64,000 nucleotides of DNA from NCBI GenBank assembly GCA_034189865.1, contig JAXHTV010000001.1, positions 1 to 64,000 on the forward strand. Direction: 5' to 3'. This document shows, in pieces, positions 4,036-8,494 of the stretch; position 1 is the first letter of the stretch; each line of letters starts with the position of its first letter. Made by a program: the position numbers and the translations under genes. The notes below the pieces were generated by a model that worked only from the letters and a program-made list of their open reading frames with translations, made no database searches and was not told where the DNA came from. Source of the DNA: Pseudomonadota bacterium (GTDB taxonomy: Bacteria > Pseudomonadota > Gammaproteobacteria > UBA5335).

Positions 4036-4063
4036 CCGGGGTTGAGTGTGGAATGGAGCAGAC

Positions 4064-5350
4064 ATGAAGGTTCTGATTTTAGGTGGTGGTGGACGTGAAC
4101 ATGCGTTGGCATGGAAGTGTGCTCAGTCTGCCCAAGTTCGAACCGTCTTCGTCGCGCCCGGAAATGCGGGCACCGCAGCCGAACCCAAAGTTCAAAACAT
4201 TGCCATTGCGGCGGATGATATCGACGCACTCGTGAAGTTCGCCATTTCAGAGCTGATCGATCTCACGATCGTCGGCCCCGAAGTTCCCCTGGTTGCCGGC
4301 GTAGTCGACCGTTTTCGAGAAAACGGACTGCCATGCTTCGGACCGACGCGCTCGGCAGCGCAGTTGGAAGGCTCGAAGGCATTCTGCAAGGCATTCATGG
4401 AACGCCATGGCATTCCAACGGCCCATTATCAATCCTTTACCGAGCTTGCGCCGGCCCTGGACTACTTAAAGCATCAGTCATTGCCTATTGTCATCAAGGC
4501 CGATGGTCTGGCGGCGGGCAAGGGTGTGGTCATCGCCAACACCGCGCGAGAAGCCACTGCCGCGGTGGAAGACATGCTTTCCGGCAACGTGTTCGGCGAA
4601 GCCGGGCATCGTGTGGTCATTGAAGAGTTTTTACAGGGCGAAGAAGCCAGCTTCATCGTCATGGCGGACGGTCAGCATGCCCTGCCCTTGGCCAGTTCAC
4701 AAGATCACAAGGCACGAGACGATGGCGACACCGGACCCAACACCGGCGGCATGGGCGCCTATTCGCCGGCGCCGGTTGTGACACCCGAAATTCACGATCG
4801 GGTAATGGCCGAAGTCATCGAACCAACCATTCGCGGCATGTCGACGGAAAACATGCCTTATACCGGATTTCTCTATGCCGGACTCATGATCGGCAAAGAC
4901 GGCTCGCCGAAAGTGCTGGAATTCAACTGTCGATTCGGCGATCCTGAAGCCCAACCGGTGCTGATGCGTCTGAACACGGATTTGGTGGAACTATGCCAAC
5001 TGGCGCTGGCCGGACGTCTCGACGAGGCCCATGCCGAATGGAATCCTGACACCGCCTTGGGTGTGGTCATGGCAGCCGGTGGCTATCCAAACCAATACCG
5101 ACGCGGTGATATCATTACCGGACTGGATAGCCAGTGGCCGGAAAACACCAAAGTGTTTCACGCCGGCACATCTCACGGAACAAACAACAATCAAATTGTG
5201 ACCAATGGGGGACGCGTACTGTGTGTGTGCGCGCTCGGATCAGATACGGCCGATGCCCAGGCCCGAGCTTATGATGCGGTCGGCCGCATCGATTGGCCAG
5301 GGGTGTACTTTCGGACCGATATCGGACATCGAGCGATTGGTCGATCTTAA
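4064..5350 (+). CDS. purD: Phosphoribosylamine-glycine ligase (GAR synthetase)
   Basis: PurD joins glycine to 5-phosphoribosylamine with ATP, the second step of purine synthesis. The N-terminal motif MKVLILGGGGREHALAWK and the ATP-grasp core (IKADGLAAGKGVVIA, then FNCRFGDPE near residue 285) identify it. I start at the ATG at 4064, which follows a GGAG site by seven bases and gives 428 residues, the usual size. An in-frame GTG at 4046 would add six unconserved residues. It follows purH by 166 bases and is followed at 32 bases by the protease of the ligase trio, so readthrough into that trio is possible. Confidence 0.96.
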   Translation: MKVLILGGGGREHALAWKCAQSAQVRTVFVAPGNAGTAAEPKVQNIAIAADDIDALVKFAISELIDLTIVGPEVPLVAGVVDRFRENGLPCFGPTRSAAQLEGSKAFCKAFMERHGIPTAHYQSFTELAPALDYLKHQSLPIVIKADGLAAGKGVVIANTAREATAAVEDMLSGNVFGEAGHRVVIEEFLQGEEASFIVMADGQHALPLASSQDHKARDDGDTGPNTGGMGAYSPAPVVTPEIHDRVMAEVIEPTIRGMSTENMPYTGFLYAGLMIGKDGSPKVLEFNCRFGDPEAQPVLMRLNTDLVELCQLALAGRLDEAHAEWNPDTALGVVMAAGGYPNQYRRGDIITGLDSQWPENTKVFHAGTSHGTNNNQIVTNGGRVLCVCALGSDTADAQARAYDAVGRIDWPGVYFRTDIGHRAIGRS

Positions 5351-5382: not shown

Positions 5383-6021
5383 ATGAATATCATGCGTGCT
5401 GCCGCATTGGTCGCGTGCGTGTGTCTTCCCCCTGTGGTTTCTTACGCCGAAACAACTGACGACACGTTCTCAGCGTTGGACGCGACATGCTCCTGCGGCA
5501 ATGGGCTGGAAACCGAGCGGGATCGGGAGATTACTGCAGACGACGATACCGATTCCTCCGTTGATGAACCAGCGCGCGAACTGAAAGAACGTCTCATACT
5601 GGGTTGGGCGGAACCGATTCGTCTGGAGCCTTGGGGCATCACCGTGGAAGCGCGGCTGGATACAGGCGCCAAGACATCTTCTCTCCATGCCACCAACATC
5701 GAGCGGATTCGACACGGCGAAGAAAAATGGGTGCGTTTTCAATTCGACCCCGATGACGAAGAGCCGACGACTATCGAGGCGCCGCTTGTTCGCAACGTCA
5801 TTATCTTACGCCACGACGGCGACCATCAGCGGCGCCCCGTGGTTAAGCTTGGCTTCTGCCTCAATGGAAAACAGTTCGAAGGTCAATTCAGCCTCATCGA
5901 CCGCAATGAACTCACCTATCCAGCTCTACTGGGACGCAGATTCCTCAGGAACGTTGCGCTGGTCGACCCCGGCCACCGTTTTTTGACCAAGCCGACGTGT
6001 GGTGACGAGGCCACGAAATGA
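5383..6021 (+). CDS. Exported retropepsin-like (putative ATP-dependent zinc) protease
   Basis: The 212-residue protein starts at an ATG six bases after GGAGAGG. It has a signal peptide (residues 1-22, ending SYAE), a Cys- and Asp-rich linker and a compact domain of the family annotated as putative ATP-dependent zinc protease (PF05618). The motif RLDTGAKTSSLHA at about residue 91 is a retropepsin-like DTGA active-site loop, so aspartic protease chemistry is more likely than zinc. The signal peptide places it in the periplasm. Its stop overlaps the next start by ATGA, so it is co-translated with the membrane protein and the RimK-like ligase that follow. The substrate is unknown. Confidence 0.8.
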   Translation: MNIMRAAALVACVCLPPVVSYAETTDDTFSALDATCSCGNGLETERDREITADDDTDSSVDEPARELKERLILGWAEPIRLEPWGITVEARLDTGAKTSSLHATNIERIRHGEEKWVRFQFDPDDEEPTTIEAPLVRNVIILRHDGDHQRRPVVKLGFCLNGKQFEGQFSLIDRNELTYPALLGRRFLRNVALVDPGHRFLTKPTCGDEATK

Positions 6022-7559
6022 AAGACCTCCGGGTGTGGCTGATAGCCGCTACGCTGGTCACACTGGGTTGTGCCTTGTTCATCTACAAGTGGCAATACCT
6101 GCAATTCCCGTTACATCCAGAGCAGCGCAGCGCGCTCTGGATGGTGGAAGCTCGGGTGGCTCTGACGCCGAAATCCGGTGTGCCGGTTCAAGTTCAAATG
6201 CAATTACCCGGCCCGTTCAGTTCGTATGCCCTGTTGAGCGAAGACTTCGTATCACGCAAATTCGGCTTGACGACCGAGACGTATGACGATTTTCGTCAAG
6301 CCAATTGGGCCATCCGCCGCGCCAACGACGAGCAAGTTTTATACTACCGTGCGGTGCTCCACGAGCAGCCGACGGCCAAAGGCGCAGACAGCTCAAGCCG
6401 CCCACCGTTTCCCGAAGTACCGGAATACGAAGAACCTTATCGATCCGCCGTGATGACTTTGCTGGACGAAGTCAGAAGCCGTTCCGCTGACATCACCACG
6501 TTTACCAGCGAACTATTGGTTCGCATGAACGAACCCAATGGGGATGAAAACGTCAATATACTCCGTCGCGGCCACGACGATCGCGCCGATTGGGTCAGAC
6601 AATTGGTTCGGGTTCTGGCGGGTGCCCGCATTCCAGCTCGCCCGGTTTCCGGGCTCAAACTGTCGGAAGGTCTCACGACGGCCGAGCTGGAGTGTTACCT
6701 GCAGGTTTTTAATGGCCGGCGATGGGTCATATTCGACCCTTATACCGGCCGTCCCGGCTTGCCTGACAACTTTCTGGTTTGGCATGTGGGCGAAGAGCCC
6801 ATCATCCGAACGCGTGGGATTTCCGACGCAGAAGTGAAATTCTCCGTCGCCAAAACCTACCGCGAAATGATTGCCGTCGCTCAGCAGGAAGCGTTGATCA
6901 CCAACCCCGGCCTGGCGCGATTCTCGCTGTTGAGCCTGCCGGTACAAACACAGAACATCTACCGCATCCTGCTCACGGTGCCCATCGGCGCCCTGCTGGT
7001 TGTTTTCTTGAGAAACCTTATCGGCATCAAAACCTTTGGTACCTTTATGCCGATTTTGATCGCCTTAGCCTTCCGCGAAACCCAACTTTTGTGGGGCTTG
7101 GTGATGTTCGTCCTATTGGTCGGCGTCGGGCTCGCGATTCGATTCTATCTTGAACAACTCAAGCTATTGCTCGTCCCACGGCTTTCCGCGGTATTGATCA
7201 TCGTGGTTCTTCTGATGGCGGCATTCAGCATTCTCAGCCACCGCCTGGGTCTGGAGCGTGGCTTGTCCGTGGCATTGTTCCCCATGGTCATCATGGCCAT
7301 GACCATCGAACGCATGTCGATCGTTTGGGAGGAACATGGACCGAACGAGGCCATCCGGCAAGGTGCCGGTAGCCTCATGGTGGCCGTTGCAGGCTACTTG
7401 GTGATGACCAACGTCTATGTGGCCCATCTGGTGTTCGTCTTTCCCGAGCTGCTGCTACTGATCCTTGGCATCACATTGGTCATGGGGCGATACACCGGAT
7501 ATCGGCTAACCGAGCTACGCCGGTTCCGGGCGCTCGTCAAGGAAGACGGAACGGATTGA
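6018..7559 (+). CDS. Membrane protein with inactive transglutaminase domain and 7-TM tail
   Basis: The 513-residue protein has one N-terminal span (about residues 8-30), a large domain likely outside the cytoplasm, and a C-terminal block of about seven hydrophobic segments from residue 315 on. The middle resembles a transglutaminase fold, including the conserved GARIPARPV and IFDPYTG motifs. The usual catalytic Cys position reads DDRADWV and the His position reads LECYLQV, so the enzyme appears dead. This matches the inactive transglutaminase/7-TM families (PF14400, PF14402). It overlaps both neighbours and probably scaffolds or presents a peptide substrate for them. Confidence 0.8.
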   Translation: MKDLRVWLIAATLVTLGCALFIYKWQYLQFPLHPEQRSALWMVEARVALTPKSGVPVQVQMQLPGPFSSYALLSEDFVSRKFGLTTETYDDFRQANWAIRRANDEQVLYYRAVLHEQPTAKGADSSSRPPFPEVPEYEEPYRSAVMTLLDEVRSRSADITTFTSELLVRMNEPNGDENVNILRRGHDDRADWVRQLVRVLAGARIPARPVSGLKLSEGLTTAELECYLQVFNGRRWVIFDPYTGRPGLPDNFLVWHVGEEPIIRTRGISDAEVKFSVAKTYREMIAVAQQEALITNPGLARFSLLSLPVQTQNIYRILLTVPIGALLVVFLRNLIGIKTFGTFMPILIALAFRETQLLWGLVMFVLLVGVGLAIRFYLEQLKLLLVPRLSAVLIIVVLLMAAFSILSHRLGLERGLSVALFPMVIMAMTIERMSIVWEEHGPNEAIRQGAGSLMVAVAGYLVMTNVYVAHLVFVFPELLLLILGITLVMGRYTGYRLTELRRFRALVKEDGTD

Positions 7560-8494
7560 TGTTCGGCATCCGGTCACTCCAGAAGCAAGGTGTGTTAGGA
7601 ATGAATCGGCGTAACGCCGATTACATCTCCCGATACAACCCCCGTCACCTCTACCCACTCGTGGACGATAAAACGCGAACCAAAACGCTGGCCCTGGAAG
7701 TGGGTATCCAGGTTCCCGAACTCTTCGGCGTCATAGAAGTCGAGCACCAGCTCAGATCTCTCGGCGATATCGTGGCGCGTCACGATGCGTTCGTGGTGAA
7801 ACCTGCCAACGGCAGCGGCGGGAACGGCATCCTGGTGATCGATGGCCGGATGAACGGACAGTTTCGGAAACTCAACGGCCAATTCCTCCATCTCGATGAG
7901 ATCGCTCACCATATATCGAACATACTGAGCGGTATGTACAGCTTGGGTGGCCAACCCGATAAAGCCCTCATCGAATACCGCGTGGAATTCGATCCTTTGT
8001 TCGAGAAGGTGAGCTACCAAGGTGTCCCGGATATTCGAATCATCGCATTTCAAGGCGTGCCGGTCATGGCCATGGCACGACTACCCACCCGACAATCCGG
8101 TGGTCGCGCCAACCTTCATCAGGGTGCCGTAGGGGTCGGTATCGATATCGCCAAAGGCATCACAACGGGCGGCGTATGGCGAAATCGCGCAGTCAGCGTC
8201 CACCCCGACACCGGCGCAGATATCGCCAACATCGCCATCCCCCGGTGGGACCATCTTTTGGAACTCGCCGCTCGCTGTTACGACTTGACCGGCCTGGGAT
8301 ACTTGGGTGTCGACGTCGTCTTGGATCGTCATTTAGGCGCTTTAGTGCTGGAAATGAACGCTCGACCGGGTCTGAGCATACAGATCGCCAACCGCGCCGG
8401 GCTGTTACATCGACTCCGTCAGGTGGAGGCCTGTGCGCCATCGGCGTCCGATCCGTTGGCGCGTGCGCAACTTTGTGTGGCGCTGTTTGCCTGA
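7559..8494 (+). CDS. RimK-like ATP-grasp ligase (alpha-L-glutamate ligase related)
   Basis: The 311-residue protein starts at an ATG overlapping the TGA of the membrane gene. It carries an ATP-grasp fold: the nucleotide-binding strand DAFVVKPANGSGGNGILVI near residue 80 and the metal-binding end VLEMNARPGLSIQIAN near residue 265. Relatives are annotated as alpha-L-glutamate ligase-like proteins. RimK itself adds glutamates to ribosomal protein S6. There is no signal peptide, so it should act in the cytoplasm or at the membrane. The substrate and the amino acid added are not known. With the exported protease and membrane scaffold it suggests a make-and-trim peptide modification system. Confidence 0.8.
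   Translation: MFGIRSLQKQGVLGMNRRNADYISRYNPRHLYPLVDDKTRTKTLALEVGIQVPELFGVIEVEHQLRSLGDIVARHDAFVVKPANGSGGNGILVIDGRMNGQFRKLNGQFLHLDEIAHHISNILSGMYSLGGQPDKALIEYRVEFDPLFEKVSYQGVPDIRIIAFQGVPVMAMARLPTRQSGGRANLHQGAVGVGIDIAKGITTGGVWRNRAVSVHPDTGADIANIAIPRWDHLLELAARCYDLTGLGYLGVDVVLDRHLGALVLEMNARPGLSIQIANRAGLLHRLRQVEACAPSASDPLARAQLCVALFA

Follow-up and report, generated by a model that had tools for sequence, protein, structure and literature searches.

The rloABC operon of a UBA5335 gammaproteobacterium: an inseparable RloB-RloC pair with a separable secreted protease

Described systems related to the locus

The association of a secreted retropepsin, a membrane protein with an inactive transglutaminase domain and a RimK-like ATP-grasp ligase has been described in Pseudomonas, where Lormand et al. 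named the genes rloABC in a 2025 mBio paper (PMC12239564). In P. aeruginosa three RloA proteases act redundantly in low-osmolarity growth, beta-lactam resistance, biofilm formation and cell shape; RloA cuts glutamate stretches at least eight residues long, for which it depends on the catalytic Asp and on two Arg residues, and mutation of its polyglutamate-binding basic residues abolishes in vivo rescue, while genome-encoded acidic stretches are not cleaved in this bacterium (PMC12239564). When either rloB or rloC is deleted, the osmotic defect caused by protease loss disappears completely and the other defects are partly relieved (PMC12239564). Earlier screens had recovered PA1766-PA1768 as suppressors of the exopolysaccharide phenotype of a flagellar mutant (PMC7314104), and in Shewanella the loss of the inactive-transglutaminase gene raises vesicle production (PMC12096838). 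The V. cholerae rlo genes are controlled by the envelope regulator VxrAB.

Two further systems share parts of this machinery. The RimB-RimK pair for polyglutamylation of ribosomal protein S6 (PMC11957791) also joins a retropepsin to an ATP-grasp ligase and has the RxNLHxG motif and the catalytic residues in common with the rlo proteins, but RimB is cytoplasmic and has no membrane partner, whereas RloA carries a predicted signal peptide. The membrane-anchored TgpA of P. aeruginosa (6g49) has a transglutaminase fold and weak similarity to RloB (E 0.23), and 3isr resembles RloB at the structural level only; unlike both, RloB lacks the Cys and His of the catalytic triad and possesses its own distinct 7-TM domain.

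Layout of the operon and features of its products

The DNA analysed here (hereafter the window) comprises 64,000 nucleotides of a gammaproteobacterial assembly assigned to UBA5335 (GCA_034189865.1, contig JAXHTV010000001.1). Its genes at 5383-8494 (Table 1) match Pseudomonas rloABC (PMC12239564) in the three families, the gene order and the inferred locations, as well as in finer traits: a DTGA retropepsin with a signal peptide and two C-terminal cysteines, an inactive transglutaminase with seven transmembrane segments and a RimK-like ATP-grasp enzyme. It is therefore nearly certain that they constitute an rloABC operon, and the combination is not new, given its publication for P. aeruginosa in 2025. 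The locus differs from its Pseudomonas counterpart in that the genome encodes one secreted RloA instead of three, that this RloA stands out by its acidic linker and its shorter flap, that the operon sits behind purD and that its products score under the Pseudomonas-specific NCBIfam cut-offs.

The original prediction, made from the sequence alone, described three genes overlapping by ATGA and TGATG, which we confirmed, and proposed that they work as one system in which a ligase in the cytoplasm builds an amide or isopeptide tail, a membrane scaffold whose transglutaminase domain is dead holds or senses it and an exported protease trims it. The unity of the system agrees with the published P. 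aeruginosa genetics and biochemistry (PMC12239564) and with the obligate pairing of RloB and RloC reported below. On the other hand, the statement that the families have no agreed substrate has been overtaken by the published cleavage of polyglutamate (PMC12239564), and the isopeptide option finds no support, the published assays being of RloA cleaving ordinary alpha-linked glutamate runs. A GGAGAGG ribosome-binding site lies 6 nt ahead of the rloA start; promoters, terminators and RNA elements were also sought and none rose above chance.

Table 1. Coordinates of the rloABC operon in the window, and of the intact-triad loci in other genomes
Feature	Position	Strand	Description
purD	4046..5350	+	Lineage-specific neighbour, outside the system
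rloA	5383..6021	+	Secreted retropepsin-like aspartic protease, 212 aa; ATG 5383, stop 6019-6021
ATGA overlap	6018..6021	+	rloB start within rloA stop, from sequence; putative translational coupling
rloB	6018..7559	+	Inner-membrane protein, 513 aa; PF14400 and PF14402, NF052267, AlphaFold model
TGATG overlap	7557..7561	+	rloC start within rloB stop, from sequence; putative translational coupling
rloC	7559..8494	+	Cytoplasmic RimK-like ATP-grasp ligase, 311 aa; ATG 7559, stop 8492-8494; TIGR02291
Intact-triad RloB-RloC loci	L148:2268-4798, L149:1976-4492, L150, L151, L195, L196

The prediction of an exported DTGA protease-like protein is borne out by RloA, which matches Zn_protease PF05618 with 123 bits in profile searches, carries the DTGA motif at D93 (nt 5659-5670) and begins with a signal-peptide-like segment (MNIMRAAALVACVCLPPVVSYA followed by ETT); signal peptides were judged from the sequence by hydrophobicity rather than by SignalP. 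Its only credible PDB relatives in phmmer searches are three bacterial RloA-type proteins, namely 9g58 (5.5e-19) and 9g59, which sequence and description match with the RloA of P. fluorescens and the RloA2 of P. aeruginosa in the literature, and 2pma from Legionella. Alignment revealed that the catalytic Asp is retained in all 29 relatives and that R91, R137, R151 and R174 correspond to the published substrate-binding set; the residues matching published R92, R114 and R137 are kept in 27-28 of the 29, and the fourth is an Arg (R91) where the published protein has a Lys (K46). The C-terminal cysteine pair is also present (Cys159, Cys206). The cut-offs of the species-level NCBIfam models were missed for RloA1, RloA2 and RloA3 (134 of 210 bits for the last) and for RloB (NF052267, 465 bits of 900 required); these being narrow equivalog or exception models, the result excludes only the naming of Pseudomonas-type orthologues. 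The protease domain is separated from the signal peptide by a linker of 46 residues (window 5449-5586), acidic (ADDDTDSSVDE) and with a CSC motif, that most relatives lack (median linker 12) and that could occupy the basic active-site cleft.

The source genome encodes only two PF05618 proteins, this RloA and a RimB that adjoins RimK on a separate contig, C31. The signal peptide of RloA, the lack of the RimK N-terminal region in RloC and the existence of a true rimB-rimK pair on C31 set the genes at 5383-8494 apart from rimB and rimK.

RloB matches PF14400 (Transglut_i_TM, 154 bits) and PF14402 (7TM_transglut, 357 bits), and consists of a transmembrane helix, a periplasmic transglutaminase fold and a conserved 7-TM domain. 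As predicted, the triad has lost its Cys and His, replaced by R189 and E225, with the Asp retained (D240); the loss, however, is no peculiarity of a single gene, being common to the RloB family as a whole. The AlphaFold model of the protein (mean pLDDT 86) retrieved the transglutaminase-like 3isr as top PDB match in a structure search (3.5e-9). About 40 of the 50 invariant residues in the RloB alignment fall within the 7-TM part, which points to the membrane domain as the conserved business end of the protein, rather than to the dead domain that in the original prediction would hold or sense the tail. Searched by fold, this domain gave no PDB match below E 1.2 and no transporter, the matches to RnfA/NqrD (TM about 0.35-0.4) not being significant. 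Kinship with CapC/PgsC, suspected from motif similarity, was not supported by hhalign (probability 1.5%, E 0.034), with 40 shuffled controls scoring over a range that included this value in a comparison that involved two CapC proteins only. Two genomes from another class of the same phylum (L034 and L035) encode proteins of ~1084 aa in which two CapC-like membrane domains lie in tandem.

RloC matches TIGR02291 with 472 bits against a cut-off of 314, as well as Pfam ATPgrasp_ST, and its ATP-grasp residues K81, E139, D158, R160, N185, D252, E265 and N267 are invariant across 30 relatives. A single-sequence search retrieved no PDB relative; with a profile, the best matches were RimK, cyanophycin synthetase and the polyglutamylase TTLL7. 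As the alignment places no RloC sequence opposite the N-terminal region of RimK, glutamate is named here as a putative substrate of RloC.

Co-occurrence of the three proteins and clades of RloB

Among 187 gammaproteobacterial genomes, strong RloB matches and above-cut-off RloC matches occurred in an identical set of 33, and the rloABC order, with RloA alongside, was found in 32 of these, so that the arrangement is not due to chance. A survey of 80 loci in named genomes found RloB next to RloC without exception; the original prediction that the families recur together thus stands for these two, which form an inseparable, obligate pair rather than being found apart as often as together. It does not extend to RloA, which is separable: it adjoins the pair at 57 of the 80 loci, two of the other 23 being cut by contig ends. 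Loci lacking RloA map to three places on the RloB+RloC tree (3 changes vs 20.4 with shuffled labels), corresponding to a Woeseiaceae/Steroidobacter group, a Xanthomonadales group and an Ectothiorhodospiraceae pair. A genome-wide search for secreted RloA in 22 genomes with such loci found none in 19, the absence not being certain in every case as some are incomplete metagenome bins; nine of the 19 encode RimB only and ten, including the isolate Steroidobacter gossypii, have no PF05618 protein at all. Trimming by RloA is therefore not always needed, and no common replacement peptidase was recognised in the reading frames neighbouring RloBC in these clades. Lineages with neither an active transglutaminase domain nor RloA must either handle the product otherwise or produce something else.

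Its distribution is uneven even between close relatives of the source genome, since the operon's marker RloB is missing where it might be expected: the two genomes of the same family that were surveyed (G108 and G668) carry no RloB. In a metagenome bin titled Klebsiella pneumoniae (L094), rloABC is closest to that of an environmental gammaproteobacterium (L093) and the label is probably wrong.

Four weak RloB matches carry an intact Cys-His-Asp triad, and a search of 370 genomes added two more, the triad being intact in all six members of the clade that they form. These pairs resemble the rloABC products described here in their 7-TM domain and in the adjacent ATP-grasp ligase, and differ from them in the complete triad, in the lack of RloA at the locus and in the TPR proteins that flank them wherever flanks were read. 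RloC is adjacent in the six cases and a linked RloA in none; three of the genomes have no PF05618 protein, two have RimB only and in the sixth (G571) an RloA-like gene adjoins a second, dead RloB copy. In one genome (L149) RloB and RloC are fused in a single reading frame of 838 aa, which implies contact between the two at the cytoplasmic face. We found no paper dealing with this intact-triad pair.

A third clade (T3; L145, L146, L147, L197-L201) combines the 7TM_transglut domain with a dead triad, two of its proteins keeping the catalytic His, and shows no RloC in the sequence that was read; a secreted RloA stands directly alongside in five of the eight loci and ~5 kb off in a sixth. All three RloB clades are well supported in a tree whose root is not fixed, the intact-triad clade with values of 100/99. 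Wherever a secreted RloA is linked to RloB, the triad Cys is missing in every case found. Because the clades are few, one intact vs two dead, this pattern amounts to one or two evolutionary switches and yields no strong statistic. It is nonetheless tempting to speculate, tentatively, that the secreted protease replaced an enzyme once built into RloB, an ancestral RloB-RloC pair having had an active periplasmic transglutaminase-like domain that acted on the RloC product until RloA took over after the loss of the Cys. If this were true, the still-active clade would be a living form of the ancestor and could reveal the shared substrate.

A proposed function and its alternatives

We read RloB and RloC as the core machine and RloA as an accessory trimmer. 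In the simplest account, which on balance we consider probable, an acidic peptide chain is produced or attached by RloC, carried or presented by RloB and cut by RloA, and RloA may have replaced the now dead domain. The mechanism that we propose for RloABC is moderately likely. In the cytoplasm, RloC would spend ATP on joining amino acids, L-glutamate being the likeliest, to an acceptor or to a chain under construction. Its obligate partner in the inner membrane, RloB, would recruit RloC and hand the product or the acceptor over to the periplasm, where RloA, a dimeric retropepsin with a basic cleft, would trim the acidic chain; under hypo-osmotic or cell-wall stress, product left untrimmed would be harmful to the envelope. 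In RloB, the transglutaminase domain, now dead, would most likely be a remnant of the catalytic periplasmic domain that RloA replaced, and may still bind substrate.

It is conceivable, though we hold it unlikely, that RloBC instead serves signalling or surface modification and makes no polyglutamate, adding another amino acid to a lipid, a glycan or peptidoglycan, the in vitro cleavage of polyglutamate by RloA being a legacy of its RimB ancestor. The Pfam name of the RloC family ('sugar-transfer associated'), the missing RimK N-terminal region and the cell-wall nature of the rlo phenotypes in P. aeruginosa are in line with this idea, and we know of no polyglutamylated periplasmic protein. It has to be set against the profile-based relatives of RloC, the closest solved ones being polyglutamate and cyanophycin ligases, and against the conservation in our RloA of the very basic residues whose mutation abolishes in vivo rescue (PMC12239564).

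Alternatively, RloC could modify RloB, with RloB itself or another envelope protein as the RloA substrate, and the operon would be a sensor of envelope tension based on regulated proteolysis instead of a polymer pathway. The many lineages carrying RloBC without RloA and the resistance of genome-encoded acidic stretches to RloA in P. aeruginosa make this improbable, even if the idea is favoured by the sensor-like periplasmic domain of the membrane protein RloB, by the osmotic and morphological nature of the P. aeruginosa phenotypes and by the VxrAB control of the V. cholerae genes. Finally, a purD-based link to purine or growth control, raised in the original prediction and suggested by a purD-rloA gap of only 32 bases without a promoter-like site, is highly improbable, since among the 70 other loci for which 2 kb of flank or more was available only that of the nearest relative (L053) has purD upstream, the neighbours elsewhere including ubiH/visC-like and gyrB-like genes identified by eye.

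Besides this lack of support for a purD link, our analysis adds to the published picture the inseparability of RloB and RloC from each other, with RloA separable, and an intact-triad sister clade without linked RloA. In Pseudomonas, envelope integrity, biofilm formation and beta-lactam sensitivity are all influenced by the rlo operon (PMC12239564), and, with RloB-RloC as the core and RloA as an accessory trimmer, the key question becomes what RloBC makes. The sister system with an active triad, the gene fusion and the natural RloBC lineages without RloA offer material on which this can be tested.
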